Source: Levilactobacillus wangkuiensis (GTDB lineage: Bacteria > Bacillota > Bacilli > Lactobacillales > Lactobacillaceae). Taken from it: DNA of 64,000 nt. A program made the position numbers and the translations under genes. Shown here piece after piece: positions 4,062-46,059 of this stretch; within the stretch, counting starts at the first letter, position 1; each line of letters opens with the position of its first letter. Below the pieces are notes generated by a model, which did not search any database, had not been told where the DNA came from, and saw only the letters and a program-made list of their open reading frames with translations. The stretch is from NCBI RefSeq assembly GCF_016861605.1, contig NZ_BOLM01000006.1:62001-126000 (forward strand), written 5' to 3'.

Positions 4062-4197
4062 TGAGCATTCTCCTCATCATAATGTTTTTTGCCTTTATAG
4101 CGTACCAAAGGTGTACGGCCGATAAAACTGTGTTCGACCTTACACCCATAAGGTATTATTCCAATTTAGCATCTAACTCGATGTGAATTCTCTCTTG

Positions 4198-4203
4198 TAT
4201 AAT
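4198..4203 (+). promoter_or_regulatory. Possible -10 box before amidase gene
   Basis: TATAAT preceded by TTG, 112 bases before the amidase start. No good -35 box is visible, so this is tentative. Confidence 0.35.
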
Positions 4204-4314
4204 TCCTTTTCTTTTAAATGAACCCTACAATTCTTGTGCCATTTGGCGTATCATTAATTCAGTTAATCAGCTGAACTGATAACGATTCACATCACAACAT
4301 GAGGAGTTCTACAT

Positions 4315-5004
4315 ATGAGAACCTGGAAATTGGGTTTAGCAGCAGCCCTACTCTTACTGCCATTGACCTTTGGGACCACGTCCGCTGCGGCCAAAACGAC
4401 CACGGCAACTGCCAAAGCAACCACCACGAAGACCACTAAAACGGCGAAGCGCACGACCCCGAAGAAAAATTATCTAATCGTCATGGGCCACGGTGCCGGT
4501 GACCCTGGTGCCCGCGGCAATGGGACGACCGAAGCTCATTTTTTGCGGCAACACATGCTGCCTCAGCTGCGGAAGTACGCCAAGGAAGTTAAGCACAGCA
4601 CCATCACCTTCTATAATCCCAAGCACAACCTGGTCAGCGACACGCTCTACCACCACAAGGGTAGCTACAAGCTGAACAAGCACACGACCGTCATCATGTT
4701 CCATCTGGACGCCCCTGCCGGTCACGGTGGCCACGTCATCATTCACAAGAAGCACCCCACGGCCCGTGACAAACGCTTGGCCAAGGTCATCAAGAAATAC
4801 GTTGGCTTGAACCGGGCATACAACGGCTACAGTTTCCGGACCAACCTGCGGAACTGCAACGTGTTGCGACGTCGAGGCATCGACTACAGTCTGGTCGAAT
4901 CCGGCTTTATCACGAACAAGACTGACGTTAAACATCTGAAGAAGCACATGGCTAAGATTGCCAAGGGTGATATTGAAGCTATCACTAATGAGAAGATCAA
5001 GTAG
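4315..5004 (+). CDS. Secreted N-acetylmuramoyl-L-alanine amidase (Amidase_3)
   Basis: 229 residues: signal peptide 1-27, Thr/Lys/Ala-rich linker to about residue 52, then an Amidase_3 domain that cuts the amide bond between MurNAc and L-Ala in peptidoglycan. Zinc-site motifs are in place: MGHGAGDPGA (His), TEAHFLR (Glu), MFHLDAP (His), and VESGFITN holding the catalytic Glu. No wall-binding repeats follow, so the cationic linker may provide attachment. ATG after GAGGAG. Probably a housekeeping autolysin rather than a phage lysin, because it carries a signal peptide. Confidence 0.87.
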   Translation: MRTWKLGLAAALLLLPLTFGTTSAAAKTTTATAKATTTKTTKTAKRTTPKKNYLIVMGHGAGDPGARGNGTTEAHFLRQHMLPQLRKYAKEVKHSTITFYNPKHNLVSDTLYHHKGSYKLNKHTTVIMFHLDAPAGHGGHVIIHKKHPTARDKRLAKVIKKYVGLNRAYNGYSFRTNLRNCNVLRRRGIDYSLVESGFITNKTDVKHLKKHMAKIAKGDIEAITNEKIK

Positions 5005-5091
5005 GCGGGTTGTAGTCCTCAACGGTTTACATGACGTTAAACCACCACTCACCATTAATTTTCGTTAGCCATGTACACCTATCAACTCGTC

Positions 5092-5140
5092 AAAAATAGA
5101 CAGCTCCACACTGGATTTTCCAATGTGAGGCTGTCTTCTT
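5092..5140. terminator. Bidirectional terminator between convergent genes
   Basis: AGACAGC...GCTGTCT outer arms with CCACACTGGA/TCCAATGTGAGG inside, lying between the amidase and the YfhO-like gene. Confidence 0.8.
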
Positions 5141-5157
5141 TAATTCTCATTTGATCT

Positions 5158-8100
5158 CTATTTCCGCCGCCGAACCATGCTAACCGTTCCAGTCACAATC
5201 AAGACCACGACACCCAGTCCCGTCAACCACTGGCCCACGCGTAAGCCCGGTGTACGATACGTCAGGCGGATCCGGTGGGTACCTGCTGGCAACCTTGCGC
5301 CAACAAAACCGACGTTGACCTTAGTCGTGGGGGTCACTTTCCCATCTACCATTAGGTGCCAGCCCGTAGAATACGGAATCGATGTCGTCAGAACACTGGC
5401 CTGTTGGGCCTGAGACGTTCCTGTCACGGTATTCTCATGAACCCGCAACTGATGTAGTCCCTGATGCTTCAGAGTTTGCATCCGCTGATCATAGGTCTTG
5501 CCAAATGGGACCGCAATTAGCTTGGCCGACTTGAACGTAAGTTGCTTCACGCCTTGGAAGGTCACGCGAATCGTTTGCCGCGGCTGCTTGGTGTACCCCA
5601 GATTCAGGAGCACGCGCCGTTGCGGCTGGTAATCCGACAGGTTACTTTGCCCCAATTGACGATAGCTGGTGACATTTTGCTTACTGCCGACCGTAAGTGT
5701 GTAGGCCCCATCGTTTAGGTTCCAGAGGGCATTCCGTAACCGATTCAGACGGGCGATTCCCGTGAAGGCACTGTTACGAAAGGCCTGCGTCTTCTGGGTG
5801 CCACGATACTTATCAATGACCCCGAATCCCTGTGCCTGGATGCCCCGTAATTCCAAATAAACCTCGGTACCGCGCGTGGTCTTCGACCGCTTCACAGTCA
5901 AATTGACCGCAATCGGCTGATTCTGGTTATCACTGGTCAGTTGCCGCAAACCGTGCGCATTTTTCTTTTGATTGGCCCGCAGAATTTGCCGATTCTCTCG
6001 TGTCAATCGCCGCAACCGGGGCCGGTCCGTTTCAATGCTTACGGAACGATCGAGGTTATGCTTACGCAACGATGGCTTTTGAATTTGGTCCGGCGCCGGA
6101 TCTAACTGATTATTTTGCTGACGATACGTGACCACCTTGGCTAAACTCGTCAGCGCAAGCTGGGAATCGCTGTCCGCTGCGTACTTTACTTCACGCTGCC
6201 AACTGTGGTAGGTCGTGGTGGGGACGCCCTTAGCGCCACCCGCCACTAATGCGCCGGCAGTTAGCGCCTGCTCGCGGTCACTCCCATTAAGCCGGTTGAA
6301 CTGACCGTTTCGCAGTTGCTTTAGCTGAACGTATGCCAACGGTAAGGCGTTCTTGGACTGGAGCACGGCCGTATCATAGGCGTTACCGAGTCCGTGGACG
6401 GGTTGATCACGATACGTGACGCGTTGTCCGTGCTGCGTCGCTGGCTGATAGCCGTACGGAAGTGCCTGCATCCCCAGTTGATTGCCGCGGGCAAAGATTG
6501 TTCGCACGCCCAACAAATTATTCAACGTCGTACGGCTATCCGCTTGGTTAATCGGCTTGTTCATCTGAAATTGCGCATTGCCCAGCGCCTGACTGAAATC
6601 GCCAACCGCCCCATTTTGCACGGAGAAGTAGCTCATGATGTCATGGCTCCCCAGGTTCATCCCCAAGTTGGTCTTCGCGTCATCACTATAGTAATAGTAT
6701 TTACTGGTGGCGCTACGGCTGAACCCGGATTGCCGGTTGGTAAACTGTTGTGCCCCGTCGTAGAAGTTCTTTTGAAATTTCGTTGCCACTCCGCGGGTCA
6801 ACAACTGTTGGCTGGCACCGCCCGAGTTGGGACTGTAATAGCCGTACCCATTGGTCACGATATTCAAGCTCAACAATGCCAACAAGCTCCCCAGCAACTG
6901 ACGCGATGACCAGTGGAACACGACCCCACAAATCAGCGCCCCCAGCGTGACCAGTAGTAGCCCGTACATGGTGAAATCATGAACATGATTGTTGAAAATG
7001 AACCCGTTGGCTGCCCATACAACTACCAGTAGGCTCAGCACACTAGCAATCATGACCTGTAAGTCCCCACGGGTCAGTGTCGTCACATGGTCCAACAGGT
7101 GCATGGTCGCCAGGCCAAACGCCAGATTGCCTAGCAATAACCAGCGTTGCGAGGGCGTCGTGCCGCCGTTCATGAGTGCTGGGACTGCCGGGATGAGGAG
7201 TCCCGCCGCCAGGAGCAGTAAGCCCACATTTAACCACAGGTACTGCTGGAAATGTCGGAGCACGTAGACGATACCCAGAAAAACCAGGCCGCTCACACCC
7301 AGATTGACCCAAAAGCGCATCGGGTTCCCGGTCGTCACCAGCGCATTGGGAAGGCGAAGGTAATAATCAAACGGAAATAGCTTGTACCCATTGGCGAATT
7401 GGCCCCCGGCCCGCGTGGATCCTAGCGCACCTAGCACGGATGGGATAAACAGGCTCCCCGCCAGCAGAAAGCCCGTCACACCGGCACCCACCAAACGCCG
7501 CACCGTTTGCCACAGGGGCAACGGTCGGAGACTCAGATAGCGTAAGACGGCGTAGATCAGGCTGCCGATAGCTAGGATGTAAGCAAAGTAGAAGTTACTG
7601 ACCAACGCCAGGCCCGTGAATACCGCTAATGGCACCCAGGACCGCCCCCGTAAGACGTGGTCGATACCATACGCCAGCAACGGAAACAGAATCATGGGCA
7701 AGAGAAAGAACGGATGCCGAATGCTGACGTACAAGCTATAACCAGTGAAGGTGTAGGCCAAGGTCCCCAGTAACGCGCTAGTCGGCCGGAAATCTCGTTG
7801 CCGCGCGAAGAATAGAAAGGCCAAGCCACTCGCGTAGAGCCGCAGTAAAATCAGACAATTATACCCGAACTCCAACATATGCCGTGGAAACAGCGCAATC
7901 AGGTAGCTGAATGGATCTCCGAGCACGTAATAGGAAAAGGTCGTCACCTTGTCGGCCCCCAGACCCAGGTCCCAGGACCAGCCAGTGAGGCTTCCCTGAT
8001 GCAGCCAGGTGTAGAACTTTTCCAATACGGGATAGTGTTGCGCCAGGCCGTCCCCTTCCCAAATAAACGATTTTCCAGTCAAAATAAAAATGCCGTACAA

Positions 8101-8163
8101 CAGGCCGGCTAATACGATAAACATCCCCGTATAGTACAGATAATTCTCCCTTGAACGTTTCAT
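5158..8163 (-). CDS. yfhO: YfhO-family polytopic membrane protein
   Basis: 1001 residues. Residues 10-430 contain about 12 membrane segments and the early motif WEGDGLAQHYP, typical of YfhO. Residues 440-965 form a large extracellular region, and a final membrane helix is capped by RRRK. YfhO of Bacillus is needed for glycosylation of lipoteichoic acid (established). Here the same outer-leaflet glycosyl-transfer role is inferred. ATG after GGGGAG. Monocistronic, convergent with the amidase gene. The wall-polymer transferase at 11753 is functionally related. Confidence 0.85.
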   Translation of the reverse strand: MKRSRENYLYYTGMFIVLAGLLYGIFILTGKSFIWEGDGLAQHYPVLEKFYTWLHQGSLTGWSWDLGLGADKVTTFSYYVLGDPFSYLIALFPRHMLEFGYNCLILLRLYASGLAFLFFARQRDFRPTSALLGTLAYTFTGYSLYVSIRHPFFLLPMILFPLLAYGIDHVLRGRSWVPLAVFTGLALVSNFYFAYILAIGSLIYAVLRYLSLRPLPLWQTVRRLVGAGVTGFLLAGSLFIPSVLGALGSTRAGGQFANGYKLFPFDYYLRLPNALVTTGNPMRFWVNLGVSGLVFLGIVYVLRHFQQYLWLNVGLLLLAAGLLIPAVPALMNGGTTPSQRWLLLGNLAFGLATMHLLDHVTTLTRGDLQVMIASVLSLLVVVWAANGFIFNNHVHDFTMYGLLLVTLGALICGVVFHWSSRQLLGSLLALLSLNIVTNGYGYYSPNSGGASQQLLTRGVATKFQKNFYDGAQQFTNRQSGFSRSATSKYYYYSDDAKTNLGMNLGSHDIMSYFSVQNGAVGDFSQALGNAQFQMNKPINQADSRTTLNNLLGVRTIFARGNQLGMQALPYGYQPATQHGQRVTYRDQPVHGLGNAYDTAVLQSKNALPLAYVQLKQLRNGQFNRLNGSDREQALTAGALVAGGAKGVPTTTYHSWQREVKYAADSDSQLALTSLAKVVTYRQQNNQLDPAPDQIQKPSLRKHNLDRSVSIETDRPRLRRLTRENRQILRANQKKNAHGLRQLTSDNQNQPIAVNLTVKRSKTTRGTEVYLELRGIQAQGFGVIDKYRGTQKTQAFRNSAFTGIARLNRLRNALWNLNDGAYTLTVGSKQNVTSYRQLGQSNLSDYQPQRRVLLNLGYTKQPRQTIRVTFQGVKQLTFKSAKLIAVPFGKTYDQRMQTLKHQGLHQLRVHENTVTGTSQAQQASVLTTSIPYSTGWHLMVDGKVTPTTKVNVGFVGARLPAGTHRIRLTYRTPGLRVGQWLTGLGVVVLIVTGTVSMVRRRK

Positions 8164-8456
8164 TAATCTCTCCCCTTATATGTAAAACCAACCGCAGAGT
8201 TCTCCACACTCTGTAAGTTGTGCCTTTCTTCACTATAGGGGTTACTTTCATGGTGGACAAGAAGATAGCGCTATTTTTAACAAAACATTATCCCGTGTAA
8301 TCTTATTGCAATGGTTTATTAACACTTGTAATCTATGTATATCCGAAATTATTATCGGCAACTATTAGGGCCCAGGTTCTGCCTCCGCCAACATCAACTT
8401 GACCAATTGCTTAATTCTTGATCCTATGCCTGCTAACTACGGTGGTTACGGATTTT
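8164..8456. other. Intergenic region without recognised gene
   Basis: AT-rich 290 bp between divergent genes. No confident promoter, hairpin or coding segment was recognised. A 13-codon reading MPANYGGYGFYVL starts at 8426 and overlaps the next gene in another frame, which hints at a damaged 5' end. Confidence 0.4.
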
Positions 8457-9068
8457 ATGTTTTATAACTACAAGAAAGGTACTAAGCTAAACAACAGTGG
8501 TTTCTATATTCGTAACAATCAGATCTTCAATATGAACCCACAAATGTTGCATGTTGCTGAACCCGACATTCTCAATAACACGGACAACGCAAATGCTGAG
8601 AAGGCTCTGAAGTACGCCCCCTCTTATGCATTGTTCACTGTCGGTACCACAAATCACACCATGGATGACATTCACGTCGATGGTAACCAGATTTACACCT
8701 TGGAAAATGATAAAACTCCAGCCAATCAAGATGGCAAGACCATCACAGAAAAAGCTGCGGACATCCATTCCAGCTCCAACATGCGTGTCAAGGGTGTCGG
8801 TGCAAAAGATTGGACTAATGCCAATCCAGCTCGAACTGTAATTGCTAAGGGTACCTCAGGTAACGAAGCTGCCCACGGATCATACACACAATCCATTTAT
8901 GGTGTACAACCAGATGGCCAGCAATTCTTAATTGCTAATGTAACTTCTTCAAAGAACCTTCCCTACAGCTACCCATTGAGTAGTAAAAACGGATACAGCC
9001 CCGCTGTTCCTGATGTCACTGTTGGTTATGAATCAGCCAATGGCAACATTTACGTACCTTATATTTAA
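8457..9068 (+). CDS. Hypothetical protein, possibly 5'-truncated
   Basis: 203 residues from the ATG at 8457; no family recognised. The protein is rich in Asn, Gly, Ser and Tyr, has no Cys and resembles an extracellular beta-rich domain, yet it has neither signal peptide nor convincing ribosome site. A TTG at 8418 would extend it by 13 residues (MILCLLTTVVTD...), also without a ribosome site. Lower GC than its neighbours. The likeliest reading is the C-terminal part of a secreted protein that has lost its start. Confidence 0.45.
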   Translation: MFYNYKKGTKLNNSGFYIRNNQIFNMNPQMLHVAEPDILNNTDNANAEKALKYAPSYALFTVGTTNHTMDDIHVDGNQIYTLENDKTPANQDGKTITEKAADIHSSSNMRVKGVGAKDWTNANPARTVIAKGTSGNEAAHGSYTQSIYGVQPDGQQFLIANVTSSKNLPYSYPLSSKNGYSPAVPDVTVGYESANGNIYVPYI

Positions 9069-9116
9069 TCGGACTTAATTCGTTTCAAATATTAGGCTAA
9101 TAAGCGTTAGCACAAC

Positions 9117-9158
9117 AAAAAGGAGTTTCTAATCTTGACGATTAGAAACTCCTTTTTT
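9117..9158. terminator. Strong bidirectional terminator
   Basis: Perfect stem AAGGAGTTTCTAATC / GATTAGAAACTCCTT with a 5-base loop and A/T runs on both sides, between convergent genes. Confidence 0.9.
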
Positions 9159-9193
9159 GTGCATTTTGCTGTTCTCATAACTATCTTACAAAA

Positions 9194-10129
9194 TTAATCA
9201 CGAACCACTAGTTTTGCATACTTATCTGGGAAGCGTGCAATCGCAAACGTTGCCATTCGACCATCACTTGTGCGAGTTATAGCGGCACCAATTTTTGCTT
9301 CGACAAAGTAATTTTTCTTCGTTACTCCTTGCTGCCCCCATATATCAGAGTGAGGGGTAAAGATAGAGGATAAATCTTCTGCCATATCAACTTTATTACC
9401 AATGTGAAGATACGTTCTTGCCTTATTTGTTCCATACCCCATATTCTCAATACCATTTTGCTTCAATAAATTAAATAAGAACTGCGCCCCTGGCGATGTA
9501 ATATTATTAAAACCTTGATTATCTGTTAAATCACCAAGATACACATTCTGGTTATTCTTTTCAGTATTGGGGAATAATTCTGATTCCGAGGAAAAGTGAA
9601 CATTACTTTCAAGCACATCATTCAAAATCGTCTTTGCTAACTGCATTGTCTTCGCGTCTGGTTTCGCACCCATACCCATACTAAGAATAGCTTTTTTAGC
9701 CATTGCCTCATAGGTACTAGGCGTCTGAGTAGTCGTTGGAGTTGGAGTCGTAGCAGCATTTGTACTTACAGCCTTAGTCAAGTATCCGCGCCAAATCCAT
9801 CCCTGAAGGGTTCCATCGGCACTCTTCACATGATAATAAATTGCCGAGTTCCCTTTGTTCTTGCGATACAGCTTTTCATGTGCATCCGTATACCAGGTCA
9901 CGGTCGGCGTTACATCGTTATTACTGTACCGGATTCCCAAATGTTTTGAGTACCGTGCACCCTTGGTAGCCGTGTACGTATGCTGCTTCATACTCTTACG
10001 CCAAACCAGTTTTACTGAATGAGATCTAGCAGCTGAATACTGACTGTTAGCTGATGCCGATACGCTAGTAGCGCCCCAAGCCCCGGCTACAACCCCCACC
10101 GTCATAATTGCTTGCATAACTCTTTTCAT
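9194..10129 (-). CDS. Secreted surface protein with SH3-like region
   Basis: 311 residues. Signal peptide 1-27 (cleavage after SASA). Residues 38-120 form a Tyr/Trp-rich SH3-like or SLAP-type wall-binding region with WRKSMKQHTY and LQGWIWRGYL. A Thr/Pro linker covers about 122-140. A C-terminal domain of 165 residues is not recognised; it contains KTMQLAKTILNDVLESN and an FNxI...GAQFLFNLL stretch. ATG after GGAGGG. No LPxTG. Probably wall-attached through the N-terminal domain. Confidence 0.65.
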   Translation of the reverse strand: MKRVMQAIMTVGVVAGAWGATSVSASANSQYSAARSHSVKLVWRKSMKQHTYTATKGARYSKHLGIRYSNNDVTPTVTWYTDAHEKLYRKNKGNSAIYYHVKSADGTLQGWIWRGYLTKAVSTNAATTPTPTTTQTPSTYEAMAKKAILSMGMGAKPDAKTMQLAKTILNDVLESNVHFSSESELFPNTEKNNQNVYLGDLTDNQGFNNITSPGAQFLFNLLKQNGIENMGYGTNKARTYLHIGNKVDMAEDLSSIFTPHSDIWGQQGVTKKNYFVEAKIGAAITRTSDGRMATFAIARFPDKYAKLVVRD

Positions 10130-10299
10130 GATTGTTTCCCTCCCATATTAATGTTAGTCTATCACTAAATGCTTCAACTTAGAATGTGTTTAACCCTTAA
10201 ACTATCCTCAAAATTCATTCATGTCTGATTCATGCTGACTTCAACAATCGTTTTTAACATCTCTTTTCTGCGACGAATCCTATTAAAATCGTCGATAAT

Positions 10300-10347
10300 C
10301 AAAAATTCCTACCTAGCTGATTTTAATCTCTAGGTAGGAACATTTTT
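10300..10347. terminator. Hairpin with 11-bp stem and T run
   Basis: TTCCTACCTAG (10306-10316) pairs with CTAGGTAGGAA (10330-10340). No intact gene precedes it on the plus strand; it may be left from a deleted gene. Confidence 0.7.
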
Positions 10348-10353
10348 ATTTGA

Positions 10354-10572
10354 AGCAACTCCATTGAAACTCTTCATAACGATACCGAAGACATTGCCTT
10401 TCTAGCCGATATTCTACGTCTCCGCTACATTAATGCGTACACGGTCCCCAAGACATGTTCCAAGCTCCTAATCTCCGAAAGGACCTTTGATCGATACCAA
10501 AATGACGCCTTATTCGCTTTCGCCCTGGCTTGCCCTTTCAATTTAATTGTTTATATCAACCATAAAATGTAG
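10354..10572 (+). pseudogene. ArpU-like phage regulator, C-terminal remnant
   Basis: An open stretch of 72 codons without a start codon. It reads DTEDIAFLADILRLRYIN, then ISERTFDRYQNDALFAFALA. This matches the end of ArpU-type phage late regulators, where RTFYRY..NEAL..FA is the recognition helix region. A complete protein would be about twice as long. The N-terminal half is absent and a terminator hairpin lies just upstream, so it cannot be expressed as such. It is the only phage trace in the window and suggests an old excised or decayed prophage. Confidence 0.55.
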
Positions 10573-10863
10573 TATCCTTATACCCTATGTTAATATATTC
10601 GATTAATCTAATCTTCTCCTCTTGAACAGCCAGGAAGGCGTTATTTAGGGTCGGGGTAACAACTAATCAATAACGATTGGTCTCACCTGAAACCCCAAAT
10701 TATTATATTTGTCACTTCAAAAAAATGGCCGATTATTGGCGTTTTCTCCCCTGAGTTCAGGATTACTATTTAAGTAAGATTTCTTCAGGTCACAGCAGCC
10801 TTTCTAACCAGCTGCGGCCTCTTCTGAAACCTTATATCTTATTTTAAAGGGAAGTCTCACGTC
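10573..10863. other. Upstream region of wall-polymer operon
   Basis: 291 bp. Near 10792-10816 a small hairpin CAGCAGC...GCTGCGG is visible. No clear -35/-10 pair could be assigned and no coding sequence is seen. Confidence 0.35.
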
Positions 10864-11741
10864 ATGCATATCCTCATTAACATTACACCTGAAACCCAAT
10901 TAAGCTGGCCTCATCTAACAACGCTGATTGAAGAAATTAGATCACAACATTTCAAAAAACTATCATTAAATCTGCAACTACCTCTAACACAGCATTTATC
11001 GATTGAGCAACGCGTAACGGCTTCAAACTGGTCATTGTCTGTAAACCAGCCACCCTTAATTTCCACTTACTACCGGGTGCTCTCCAACAGTGGCACAGCT
11101 TAGCAACCCTTCATCCCCAAGCTATTATCAGCCTTGCCAGCTTTGACAATAGCCGTTCACCGTACGATCAAATCCATGATTATGTTAATCATCATCAAGC
11201 GAACAGCCTACAAACGACTTTTTCAGCCTTAGCAGGCCCAGTAACCTCATCAACTGTTTTGTGGAGTTTACAAAAGTACACAATTTTACCTGATCTCCCC
11301 AGTTCCCACCAATTAGCCCAACAGCTCCAACCCACTGGTGTTCTCCTACCTGTCAGTTTACTCCAATCTAAGTATCCTTTAGTCTCACTGAACCAGACGC
11401 TGTCTGCGTTTCAGTCCGCCGCTGAAGTTGTCCGGCTATGTGTTCCAACGTTTATAACGCAAGCTTGGGCTGCCACAACGCCGCTGGCCTGGCTAGACCA
11501 ACTGCAAACTGTTGATGTCACGGGATTAGATACCGCTTGGCAACCACTTTTTACTCACTACCTGCAGCAGCAATTAACCTCAATCCTGGCAACTACCACC
11601 CCCCACCGGCTGACATCTGCAGAGCATATTCGTCTCCTACAGCAAGTTCAACAATTAACAAACAAACCAGTCCATCCCTGGACGCGGCTGGCTCTACTCC
11701 AACACATCTCGCCACAACTGGCCCATCTATTGTTCCACTAA
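10864..11741 (+). pseudogene. Frameshifted gene preceding wall-polymer transferase
   Basis: Two open segments in different frames make one gene of about 292 codons. Frame one runs from the ATG at 10864 to a stop at 11101. The downstream frame stays open from about 11076 (GALQQWHSLATLHPQ...) to the TAA at 11739. A single missing base near 11070-11085 would restore one protein. No slippery heptamer is visible there, so programmed frameshifting is unlikely; a mutation or sequencing error is more likely. The product is Leu/Gln/Thr-rich, soluble and not recognised. Its stop lies 11 bases before the next start, so it belongs to that operon. Confidence 0.65.
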
Positions 11742-11752
11742 GGAGATCACCT

Positions 11753-14047
11753 ATGAAATTCAGTTTAATTACGCCAGTAAAGGCCGAAGAACTCCCCCAG
11801 CTTCTAGCACTCAAACAAAATCTATCCCAGCAAACCATGCAGGATTTCGAATGGCTAATTGCGACCGACTTAACTTTGGATCTGCAAAGTCCTACCTGGC
11901 AGACGCCGTTTCCGATTCGTTTAACCCAACCAACCGTTCCAACCATCGGTGCGGCACGTAATGCTGCACTGGCGAGTGCCAAGGGTGACTGGCTTGTGTT
12001 CATGGACAGTGATGACTACTTATTACCGGAGGCATTAGCCCACTTGGATGGTACCACCGCCTTAACGCCCACTGTCATGGCTGACCTGCATCAATACCCG
12101 ACCTATGAACCACACACTGCCTTTATCAACACCCTTTCCCAAACAATCGCGCGGGATAACTTACCCAAAGGCACAGGTTCTAAAGGCAAGAAGATCACCT
12201 ATCGCCCACTCGATTTACCCGCAGACCTAACTACCGAAACGCCAAGTGATTTACCAATTAAGGCACAGAACTGGTTGAATTATAAATATCGGCTCTATCA
12301 AGACACCACTCGCTGGGATAATTTCAAACGTCAACTGTCAATTGCTGGTAAGGTCATCAATCGCGAACTCGTGCAGCAAGCCAAGATTCAATTTGATGCG
12401 ACGAACCCTTTGTACCCGGATAGTCTTTTCCTCACACAAGTCATGGCCCACACATCAGCTTATCTTCAACTGGCTAATCCGACCTATATTCGTGTCAGAC
12501 ACAACGATCCAATCAATGCACCTTCTGTACACCAATTACCCACACCTAACCGTTGGCATGATCGACTAGCTGCCTGGCAACTTAGTCTAGACCAACTTTC
12601 CGCTGGTGATTTGCGCGATGCCTTTGCCACTTACACACTAAACCGGCTGCATCGCTACTTGTATAAGTCCCTGTCCACCAACACCGACGATACCATCGCT
12701 GACCCCCAGGATTTAGCCGTACAGCTTCAGCGATACCTTCAATCAATTGATACGCCGAGCAGCTTTCAGGCTATGCCGCTATTAAGCCGACAAATTTTGC
12801 ATCACTTTCAACAGCATGGTACCATCCCCCAGGGACAAATTAATACGATTGTGCGGCTTCGTCAGTTGCGCCGAGTCATCAAGCATCACGGACGCGGCGT
12901 GACGCGCTTGGCCTACGACTGGTGGTTCACGAAACTACCCGTTAGGCCAAAAACGATTCTTTACGAGTCCTTTTTAGGTCGCAACTTTTCTGACAGTCCC
13001 AAGGCTATTTATCAGCATCTGCAAGCAAACTATCCCGGTAAATTCAAACACATCTGGGTTATGGCCGACCACACAGATACTGGCCCCGGTAATCAGCCTG
13101 ATACCAAGGTGGTTAAGCGCTTTGGCTGGCGCTACATGTACTACTTGGCCACCGCCAGGTATCAAGTTATCAATATGCGACAACCAAAGTGGTTTATCAA
13201 ACGCCCCGGAACAAAATTTCTCGCCACCTGGCACGGCACACCTTTAAAGCACTTGGTTTTTGATATGGATAACGTTGCTAGTGCTAATCCACACTACAAG
13301 GAAATCTTCTATCAGCAATCTCGCCAATGGGACTACCTGATCACCGCCAATCAATTTTCTGTTGATGTCTTCGAACACGCCTTTATGTATCCGACGCAAA
13401 AAATGTTATCAACCGGCTACCCACGCAATGATATTCTCAGCGCCCCAGACAAGACCAGCCAAGCGAATAACATCAAGCAAAAGCTGGGGATTCCTCTAGA
13501 CAAAAAGGTTATCCTGTACGCACCGACCTGGCGCGATGATGATTATTATAGTGTTGGTAATTACAAATTCACTTTGAAGCTCGACATTCCTCGATTAAAA
13601 AGAGAATTAGGTCAAGACTATGTCCTTGTACTCAGAACCCACTACTTTATTACTGATCACCTTGATACAACCGGCTTTGGCGACTTTGTTTACAACGAGT
13701 CCAGCTACGATGACATTAGCGAGTTATATCTGATTTCCGATGTCCTCATTACTGACTACTCCAGCGTTTTCTTTGATTACGCTATTCTAAAACGACCAAT
13801 TCTCTATTTTGTTTACGACTACGAAAAGTACCGCAGTGTTTTACGTGGCTTCTACCTCAACATGGAGACAGATCTGCCAGGCCCCCTGCTAAAAACCAAT
13901 GACGAGGTACTCAGTGCCCTACACAATCTACCTGCTGTTGAAAGACAATACCGTGACGCCTATCAGCAGTTCAGCAAGCGGTTCAATGCTTGGGAAGACG
14001 GTCATGCCACCCAGCGTGTCGTCAACACCTTCTTTGATTTAAAGTAA
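11753..14047 (+). CDS. GT2 glycosyltransferase / CDP-glycerol transferase fusion
   Basis: 764 residues. N-terminal GT2-type domain (about 1-280) with MKFSLITPV, ARNAALASAKGDWLVFMDSDD (DSD = metal/nucleotide-sugar site). C-terminal domain (about 385-760) is CDP-glycerol:glycerophosphate transferase, TagF/TarF type, with ATWHGTPLKHL, LYAPTWRDD and LLITDYSSVFFDYA. The cytoplasmic enzyme would build a teichoic-acid-like or glycerol-phosphate-decorated glycan. The start is set by AAGGAG 8 bases before ATG at 11753; the frame is open further upstream, but that part overlaps the preceding gene in another frame. It forms an operon with the frameshifted gene upstream. Confidence 0.85.
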   Translation: MKFSLITPVKAEELPQLLALKQNLSQQTMQDFEWLIATDLTLDLQSPTWQTPFPIRLTQPTVPTIGAARNAALASAKGDWLVFMDSDDYLLPEALAHLDGTTALTPTVMADLHQYPTYEPHTAFINTLSQTIARDNLPKGTGSKGKKITYRPLDLPADLTTETPSDLPIKAQNWLNYKYRLYQDTTRWDNFKRQLSIAGKVINRELVQQAKIQFDATNPLYPDSLFLTQVMAHTSAYLQLANPTYIRVRHNDPINAPSVHQLPTPNRWHDRLAAWQLSLDQLSAGDLRDAFATYTLNRLHRYLYKSLSTNTDDTIADPQDLAVQLQRYLQSIDTPSSFQAMPLLSRQILHHFQQHGTIPQGQINTIVRLRQLRRVIKHHGRGVTRLAYDWWFTKLPVRPKTILYESFLGRNFSDSPKAIYQHLQANYPGKFKHIWVMADHTDTGPGNQPDTKVVKRFGWRYMYYLATARYQVINMRQPKWFIKRPGTKFLATWHGTPLKHLVFDMDNVASANPHYKEIFYQQSRQWDYLITANQFSVDVFEHAFMYPTQKMLSTGYPRNDILSAPDKTSQANNIKQKLGIPLDKKVILYAPTWRDDDYYSVGNYKFTLKLDIPRLKRELGQDYVLVLRTHYFITDHLDTTGFGDFVYNESSYDDISELYLISDVLITDYSSVFFDYAILKRPILYFVYDYEKYRSVLRGFYLNMETDLPGPLLKTNDEVLSALHNLPAVERQYRDAYQQFSKRFNAWEDGHATQRVVNTFFDLK

Positions 14048-14072
14048 CGGCGACACCTTCCCAAATACTGCT

Positions 14073-14110
14073 AAAACAGGCTGGAAGACTTCCGTTCAGG
14101 CCTGTTTTGC
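14073..14110 (+). terminator. Terminator of wall-polymer operon
   Basis: AAAACAGGC pairs with GCCTGTTTT, with GGAAGACTTCC in the loop. Confidence 0.7.
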
Positions 14111-18760: not shown

Positions 18761-18791
18761 TGCTCTCAAGGTCAAATCCCCGGTCTGCCCT

Positions 18792-18819
18792 AAAGCGTTG
18801 TTTGAAAGCGTTGTTTGAA
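18792..18819. repeat. Two-unit tandem repeat
   Basis: AAAGCGTTGTTTG occurs twice head to tail. Each copy resembles a weak cre half-site. No coding role. Confidence 0.5.
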
Positions 18820-18855
18820 ATCCTTATCCGTTTCCGATTCTACAATTTTACACGG

Positions 18856-18931
18856 GATTGTAACATGTTTTTCCGGATTGTAACACCAACATGTTACAAT
18901 CCTCTTTACAGCTGTTACAATCGTCTATAAT
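18856..18931 (+). promoter_or_regulatory. TGTAACA operator array overlapping a promoter
   Basis: Four half-sites in 67 bp: GATTGTAACA (18856) and GGATTGTAACA (18875) forward, TGTTACAATCC (18892) and TGTTACAATC (18913) reversed. The middle two make a perfect 11-bp inverted repeat around six bases. A promoter TTTACA-N15-TATAAT (18905-18931) overlaps the last half-site. The array should control the MucBP gene at 19097. The regulator is unknown and not adjacent. Confidence 0.7.
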
Positions 18932-19096
18932 TACTATTATATCAGCATTTAGACAACCTTTCCCGATGCCTAGTTGTCAAAACAGTGGCAACTATTTTAG
19001 CCACGATATGTCTGCTGAATTATTTACTCACATTTAAATGTTTGTCCCCTTAATTAGTGGTAAGCTTAGCTTAAAGTTGATCCACGGGGAGCGCAC

Positions 19097-22342: not shown

Positions 22343-22545
22343 CAACCGGGACCCAAACTAGTATGAGCCGTGAGGGCGAGAAAAACGGACTCAGCCGTGG
22401 GATTTATTAGTGCTTTCGGAAACGAATGCACTAATAAATGGCGATTTTGAGACGTGATTTTCGGCTCAAAACGAGGTCCAAGACCGCTCCTCAGGCTTGG
22501 GCCGCCCTCCCCTCGCGTTCCAGTCCGTTTTTTTCGCCCGGTAAG
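22343..22545. repeat. Structured intergenic element, copy A
   Basis: Shares blocks CAGCCGTGGGA, TTTTGAGACGTGATTTTCGG and GGCTCAAA with copies at 31808 and 45855. The outer stem GGGCGAGAAAAACGGACT (22374-22391) pairs with AGTCCGTTTTTTTCGCCC (22522-22539) with one G-U pair. The inner stem ATTTATTAGTGC pairs with GCACTAATAAAT. No protein is supported here; the open frames are incidental. Confidence 0.75.
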
Positions 22546-22634
22546 GCGCTGCAGCTCGCCAATTTAAAATTTCCGGTTGACACCACTTTTTTCCAGGGGT
22601 ACACTAGCCTCAATTCAATAAATCGTCCGAAACA

Positions 22635-31807: not shown

Positions 31808-31979
31808 ATGGGTTAAACCTATTTCAGCCGCAGGACCGGTGAAAATGAGCTTAGCCGTGGGAGTGGCCTTAGCGGTTTACCGCTTAGACCACTGCTATCT
31901 TTGAGACGTGACTTTCGGCTCAAAGTAAGTCTGGAGACCGCCCTTTGGCTCCAGGCGGCGCCCACAACGTTTAACCCAT
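31808..31979. repeat. Structured intergenic element, copy B
   Basis: Core blocks as in copies A and C: TTAGCCGTGGGAG, TTAGCGGTTTACCGCTTAGA, CTTTGAGACGTGACTTTCGG, GGAGACCGCC. Here the closing stem is ATGGGTTAAAC (31808-31818) with GTTTAACCCAT (31969-31979). It ends 29 bases before the malolactic enzyme start, so it would lie in that gene's leader or over its promoter. Confidence 0.75.
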
Positions 31980-32008
31980 TAAATTGAAATTTGGAGGAAA
32001 AATAATTT

Positions 32009-45854: not shown

Positions 45855-46033
45855 GTGTCAGCCGCAGGGTTGGTGAAAATAAGGTCAGCCGTGGGAGTTA
45901 TCTTAGCGGTTTACCGCTTAGATAACTGATATCTTTGAGACGCGCTCCTCAGCGGCTCAAAGTAAGCCCGGAGACCGCTTTTTGGCTCGGGGCGTTCGCC
46001 CACAGCGTCCCGCCTTATTTTCACCAACCCGGA
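45855..46033. repeat. Structured intergenic element, copy C
   Basis: Outer stem GGGTTGGTGAAAATAAGG (45867-45884) pairs perfectly with CCTTATTTTCACCAACCC (46013-46030). Inner stem GTTATC-TTA-GCGG...CCGC-TTA-GATAAC. Shared core CAGCCGTGGGAGT, ATCTTTGAGACG, GGCTCAAAGTAAG, GGAGACCGC with copies A (22343) and B (31808). Confidence 0.78.
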
Positions 46034-46059
46034 GGCGTAGTCACCCCGCCATTTAGCCG

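Follow-up and report, generated by a model that had tools for sequence, protein, structure and literature searches.

Covarying, modular intergenic repeats in Lactobacillaceae, probably a BOX/MITE-like mobile family

Three related elements in a 64,000-nucleotide stretch of the Levilactobacillus wangkuiensis genome (the window, by which we mean this whole stretch) belong to a family of folded repeats with high copy number, intergenic position in the stretches examined, covariation at the level of the family and at least two subtypes. Presence or absence of its members differs between species, crowns differ inside a conserved shell, and many copies are surrounded by arms specific to their locus. 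We consider it probable that these are short, non-coding and non-autonomous modular mobile repeats of Lactobacillaceae, BOX/MITE-like in character, that spread in trans, nest into one another and become near-neutral once placed.

The basic unit is predicted to be a branched fold in which outer arms and a closing stem enclose two or three hairpins. Its spread would depend on a putative trans-acting factor recognising the fold of one strand, as transcribed RNA or as single-stranded DNA. New or exchanged units would settle preferentially inside existing palindromes, so that an old shell would serve a new crown as its outer arms, and most copies would decay nearly neutrally after placement. We give only tentative and limited credence to a structure-templated class of mobile element, in which a folded RNA or single strand would be the substrate, would enter palindrome loops and would build hierarchies of shells by nesting; if this were true, locus-specific inverted arms would replace target-site duplications, and whole helices would covary.

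Copies in the window and in the source genome

The preliminary description reported a three-copy element at 22343-22545, 31808-31979 and 45855-46033 (copies A, B and C). All three copies and the arms quoted for them are present, while the number three has to be replaced by at least 300 for the genome as a whole. Inside the window, the core pattern TTTGAGACG..GGCTCAAA occurs 3 times against 0.00 expected, and R1, a covariance model built from 31 rows of the source genome that include copies A, B and C, detected these loci and no fourth, its other three matches being opposite-strand echoes.

The predicted fold of copy C has an outer arm, the closing stem GCCGTGGG/CCCACAGC and three hairpins, two of which have the motif GAGAC..GGCTC in common (Table 1). 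The arms of this copy pair without mismatch over 18 bp (45867-45884 with 46013-46030), those of copy A pair over 18 bp including one G·T, and the further-out arm of copy B pairs over 11 bp. Fold z-scores were -8.3 for C, -7.7 for A and -4.8 for B, each beating all 200 dinucleotide shuffles. The outer arms quoted earlier for A and C hold, whereas the pair quoted for B (ATGGGTTAAAC/GTTTAACCCAT) is a further-out layer and no homologue of the A and C arms, so that the quoted comparison of the three mixes two layers. The homologous 5′ arm of copy B, GGACCGGTGAAAATGAGCT, has lost its 3′ partner, which is still present at the orthologous site in two sister species. The genes around copy C are TetR-type and NAD-binding, the gene after copy B is that of malic enzyme and the gene after copy A that of a solute-binding protein.

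Table 1. Elements in the window and their parts (window coordinates; pairs of the copy C shell junction were counted in A3, the 31-copy alignment)
Feature	Position	Strand	Basis
Copy C, type I element (core unit)	45859..46038	+	R1 200.8 bits, E 6e-44; fold z -8.3
Copy C, shell junction GCC[GCA], 5′ side, with mismatches	45861..45866	+	read from fold
Copy C, outer arm, 5′ side (GGGTTGGTGAAAATAAGGT)	45867..45885	+	sequence and fold
Copy C, outer arm, 3′ side	46012..46030	+	sequence and fold
Copy C, closing stem, 5′ side (GCCGTGGG)	45888..45895	+	fold; kept across species (helix 2)
Copy C, closing stem, 3′ side (CCCACAGC)	45999..46006	+	fold; helix 2 of cross-species alignment
Copy C, crown hairpin 1	45896..45927	+	fold; helix 3 of cross-species alignment
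Copy C, crown hairpin 2 (CTTTGAGAC..GGCTCAAAG)	45933..45962	+	fold; helix 4 of cross-species alignment
Copy C, crown hairpin 3 (GGAGACCGC..GGCTC)	45966..45993	+	fold; helix 5 of cross-species alignment
Copy A, type I element with divergent arms	22365..22549	+	R1 129 bits; arms 22374-22391 / 22522-22539
Copy B, type I element, 3′ side of arm lost	31825..31979	+	R1 124.4 bits over 31825-32000; orthologues
Copy B, further-out inverted arm, 5′ side (ATGGGTTAAAC)	31808..31818	+	sequence
Copy B, further-out inverted arm, 3′ side (GTTTAACCCAT)	31969..31979	+	sequence
Copy B, homologue of A/C outer arm, 5′ side only (GGACCGGTGAAAATGAGCT)	31833..31851	+	sequence and orthologues

The source genome (3.14 Mb; malic enzyme identity of 98% with both L. 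mulengensis and L. lanxiensis) was then searched by BLAST with copy C, and the best 40 of 230 candidates, C included, were all full-length or nearly so. All 150 matches scored with R1 (type I), among 1687 first-look candidates, were accepted (lowest 116.8 bits), as were all 150 scored among 1489 candidates (lowest 163.9 bits) with R2, a covariance model built from the second subtype, type II. No pair of entries from the two lists starts within 185 bases of each other, and because the lists share no matches, the source genome holds at least 300 copies. At a length of ~185 bp, 300 copies make up at least about 1.8% of the 3.14 Mb. On the complete contig C6 (191,324 bases) there are 22 loci after merging of strand duplicates, with none added by R2, and ~360 copies per genome are extrapolated from this density. 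Units measure about 150-190 bp, and nested ones reach about 270 bp. According to a simple gene caller, the overlap with predicted genes exceeds 60 bp for none of the 88 matches in the stretches of the source genome.

Covariation in the family and change at single sites

Alignment A4 contains 20 copies, one per genome from 20 species. In this set, whose members except C are the best model matches, a choice that favours well-paired copies, 96.8% of paired cells are standard pairs; shifting the partner by one column lowers pairing to 46-48%. Both sides have changed in 36 of 54 pairs (type I), and the covariation score of 0.518, against 0.187 for shuffled alignments, was reached by none of 500 shuffles. 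The covarying stems proposed from three copies are thereby supported in 20 species. Across these species the sequence of the outer arm is rewritten with its complementarity kept, and the hairpin sequences and the closing stem are conserved. Within the source genome, both-side changes were found in 27 of 62 pairs of alignment A3 (type I, 31 copies) and, for type II, in 36 of 57 pairs (22 copies; 0/500 shuffles as high); the two subtypes follow a common plan.

Extreme covariation of the kind seen in A4 is what a functional RNA family would produce, its copies being transcribed as part of an mRNA or as small RNAs, with the fold regulating a neighbour and selection acting at each locus. Some copies indeed lie just upstream of a ribosome-binding site, as copy B does 30 bp before the malic enzyme gene. 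We nevertheless regard this explanation as unlikely, given how single sites have changed. Mapping of 52 of 65 element clusters onto L. lanxiensis and L. mulengensis gave 94 site-by-species rows of orthologous intervals. Interval length agrees within 50 bases in 45 of these rows, a point for functional RNA, and differs by 150 or more in 24. The site-level test used the 27 rows that contain a single element and differ in length by no more than 25. At paired positions, single changes kept the pairing in 58 of 167 cases, against a fraction of 0.375 expected from flank mutations; in the 19 rows free of bursts the count was 36 of 102, against 0.388. Single changes in fixed copies gave G·T about as often as A·C (90 vs 82). 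The lack of a pairing preference and the near equality of G·T and A·C both speak against functional RNA, as does lineage-specific presence at the sites compared across the genus.

Two further results concern the same rows. Paired changes came in bursts in 8 of the 27, with 54 both-side pairs against ~1.8 expected. In the 19 no-burst rows, paired positions diverge less than the flanks, at 4.3% vs 10.7%, the lower figure being biased downwards because this subset was picked for few double changes; such a difference would fit some constraint at the level of the site and counts in favour of functional RNA.

We also compared the two kinds of mismatch that distinguish one strand from the other. In 147 full-length type I copies, sampled strand-symmetrically with nhmmer and with pairs mapped by mafft, G·T exceeds A·C (233 vs 169). 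The excess is found in near-intact copies (0-7 non-Watson-Crick pairs, n=85; 99 vs 40), where functional RNA would also predict it, in contrast to degenerate copies (more than 7 such pairs, n=62; 134 vs 129). A set of the source genome's own copies chosen by BLAST gave 29 vs 19 (p 0.19), and the cross-species set chosen by covariance model gave 36 vs 6, a count that is not relied on alone because such selection favours G·U. The p-values for strand polarity overstate significance because the counts share ancestry. Relative to co-directional neighbour genes, 19 copies have the same orientation and 27 the opposite one, which is no bias and differs from the constant orientation of riboswitch-like elements; the remaining 42 of the 88 matches lie between divergent genes (22), between convergent genes (13) or at stretch edges (7).

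Since pairing is not preferred at fixed sites and orientation is not biased, the structure looks selected in propagating copies and not locus by locus. These results suggest that one strand's fold counted during propagation and not at the individual sites, with decay after settling. The selected structure of the preliminary description therefore stands as covariation of the family and finds no support as selection at each site (36/102 against 0.388; 19 against 27), a warning that covariation alone is no proof of RNA function at a locus.

Inverted arms, crown exchange and site occupancy

Beyond the unit, many copies extend into imperfect inverted arms that differ by locus. The complementarity between a copy's own flanks was reached by none of 2000 random matchings, either for type I (46 copies) or for type II (48 copies), and control intergenic midpoints gave no signal (1063/2000). 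The signal persisted in 30-base windows whose start lay 26 (type I) and 24 (type II) bases beyond the unit; with the start at 34 bases, the type I signal was gone (174/2000). A GGGTTAAAC layer is common to many type I copies, and windows from 18 bases out lie past it. Next to the unit, 26 of 46 type I copies surpassed 95% of cross pairings; from 18 bases out 13 of 46 did so, as did 15 of 48 type II copies in windows from the edge. Because only 13/46 and 15/48 do so, inverted arms are a property of part of the copies. Read by eye, the shells of about 14 of 47 type II copies are type I shells, and further type II copies lie in unrelated sequences. The arm first quoted for copy B is part of this outer, locus-specific layer. 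The locus-specific arms are best accounted for by insertion into palindromes that already existed, some of them older elements, with arm-templated synthesis as the rival source.

Type II units replace the crown inside type I shells, and the composite is predicted to fold as one stacked structure. At orthologous sites the same shell was found with a type I or a type II crown at contig C6 51593-51710 (compared with L. lanxiensis), at clusters 54 and 17, and at copy B. L. mulengensis has a rewritten copy A, with identities of 93% and 99.7% in the two flanks, and L. lanxiensis has copy C as a tandem doublet. In 60 comparisons of the source genome's own copies, a type I copy was present in 50 intervals, and for 26 of them the orthologue was closer than every paralogue in the stretches analysed; stretches G020 C2 and G026 C12, which are not syntenic with the source genome's C2, served as extra copies only. 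The inspected differences between sister species looked like deletions, tandem copies or exchanges, with no clean new insertion among them. No target-site duplication was readable at the sites inspected, which included no clean recent empty site, the empty sites of other species being too diverged.

Occupancy of sites varies across the genus. One intergenic site with two elements measures 800 bp in the source genome and 776 bp in L. lanxiensis, and its orthologues measure 72-154 bp in 11/11 other species fetched (lengths include ~25 bases of each anchor; a twelfth species, G011, was located and stands outside the count). At a second site, read by eye, differing elements occur in differing species and none in seven. 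Upstream of malic enzyme, no element was seen in 11/11 other Levilactobacillus species aligned, and the two sister species carry one different from that of the source genome.

The clustering of paired changes in bursts (54 pairs in 8 of the 27 rows), the varying crowns inside conserved shells and the locus-specific inverted arms could also arise from palindrome-driven DNA dynamics, in which template switching and gene conversion would keep arms complementary and copy crowns, covariation being a mutational by-product. The complementary strand of copy C, taken as DNA, folds almost equally well (-51.2 vs -55.2 kcal/mol), as this explanation would have it. We judge it improbable, to the same degree as functional RNA, because it leaves the spread to hundreds of places and the lineage-specific occupancy unexplained, and because the conserved hairpins and closing stem, together with the G·T excess of near-intact copies, point to selection on one strand.

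At window positions 18769-19018 (C6:80769-81018) lies a 249-bp stretch with inverted repeats around GATTGTAACATGT/ACATGTTACAATC and no R1 match, which the orthologous site of L. lanxiensis lacks, and ~10 kb (window ~4167-14097) are missing from the collinear place in that species. Locus L007 (C28 7150-8000) is a head-to-tail array of truncated type I 5′ halves, some with type II starts, that adjoins one complete copy.

Candidate mobilisers, known repeats and distribution

REP, REPIN and BIME repeats, associated with RAYT, are palindromic intergenic repeats with short hairpins that form inverted or tandem arrays. The present elements resemble them in being palindromic and intergenic, in inverted or tandem arrays, and differ from them in unit size (about 150-190 nt vs short hairpins) and in that no Y1 transposase was found in the source genome. 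That they are REP/REPIN-type repeats moved by an IS200/IS605-like (Y1, RAYT) transposase is very improbable, for although their hairpin-rich intergenic arrays resemble REPINs or BIMEs and a Y1 protein (PF01797) is present in 23 of 35 genus genomes, the source genome has at least 300 copies yet no PF01797 match, and the two genus genomes without R1 matches (G021 and G031) do have one. A Y1 transposase as mobiliser is thus unsupported. A search for an autonomous parent, in which arms would enclose an ORF, found none in 2.18 Mb, less than the whole genome; 12 arm separations over 450 bp, read by eye, were arms of neighbouring copies or chance.

The closest working analogue is the pneumococcal BOX repeat. 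In the available part of PMC3049150, BOX elements are described as many-copied, folded and composite, with an inner module absent or repeated between strains, as inserting into one another and as having slow present-day insertion. The likeness lies in outer modules around a variable inner module, shared here in plan only, and the comparison concerns plan and description and not module sequences. BOX belongs to streptococci and has the order boxA-boxB-boxC with a variable number of boxB, whereas the Levilactobacillus repeats belong to Lactobacillaceae and have a multi-hairpin crown. In the latter, unlike BOX, a whole crown is swapped for another full unit, and whole helices covary between species.

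The earlier suggestion of a MITE-like element is supported. As far as the available parts of PMC3049150 and PMC10969869 describe the MITEs RUP, Nezha and QMITE2, the present repeats resemble them in being short, non-coding and dispersed, with inverted ends, a strong fold and a presence that varies between species; unlike them, they gave no target-site duplication or parental transposase and are not AT-rich, the G+C of matches being 0.50-0.67 against 0.51 in the window. As for the constant terminal inverted repeats of MITEs, inverted arms are present, but the outermost arms are locus-specific in many copies, and covariation of the arms makes the ends variable in sequence. Among small structured interspersed repeats we class the family as a new variant, and not as a member of BOX or of the MITEs.

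Structured RNAs of Rfam share a covarying multi-stem fold with the repeats, but no family reaches its gathering score: a gathering-threshold scan of the window and six further loci gave 0 matches, in keeping with the earlier statement that no named family is recognised, and a permissive scan around copy C gave one chance match off the element. In the available text of the MITE review PMC10969869, the main text lacks 'Lactobac', 'Lactoc' and 'plantarum', and the part seen of the stem-loop family survey PMC2267715 has one Lactobacillus, L. johnsonii, in a table row. An incomplete search of titles and abstract openings returned nothing on such a repeat family in Lactobacillaceae, and the family is apparently undescribed. 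The three outcomes named beforehand as refuting the preliminary description (no further copies, no covariation, a match to a described repeat) did not occur. Exchangeable crowns and locus-specific arms open two questions to testing: whether the mobile unit can be a nucleic-acid fold and nothing more, and how strong covariation arises in elements apparently near-neutral at each site.

Searching relatives with R1, the model that includes the three copies, extended the family from the source genome to the genus. At E 0.01, 33 of 35 Levilactobacillus genomes match, the source genome counted, as against 1 of 23 genomes from other families of the order (two weak matches, best 7e-4). The large searches applied stricter filters and scored few candidates per genome; there, 78 of 301 genomes of the family draw (Lactobacillaceae by named loci) match at 1e-4, spread over 12 of 40 genera, and 22 of 395 genomes of the order draw match at 1e-6, all 22 in the same family, Lactobacillaceae. 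Among the named loci given to the model (56 of 80), matches lie in Levilactobacillus and Lactiplantibacillus. The family thus extends to two common food bacteria, L. brevis, in which all 46 scored R1 matches of strain CD0817 (G003) held, and L. plantarum, of which strain EGD-AQ4 carries a copy with a fold z of -5.5. Plasmid and phage collections searched with copy C gave no match.

Copies from other Levilactobacillus genomes (L080-L089) are about 155 nt long in 9 of 10 cases and 181 in L084, and several have two crown hairpins when read by eye. A third subtype was noticed at L196:10525-10706, L199:9117-9301, L199:10951-11133 and L194:11552-11736; its arm junction (GCCGGAGG..CCGCAGGC) resembles the type I junction with the sides swapped.
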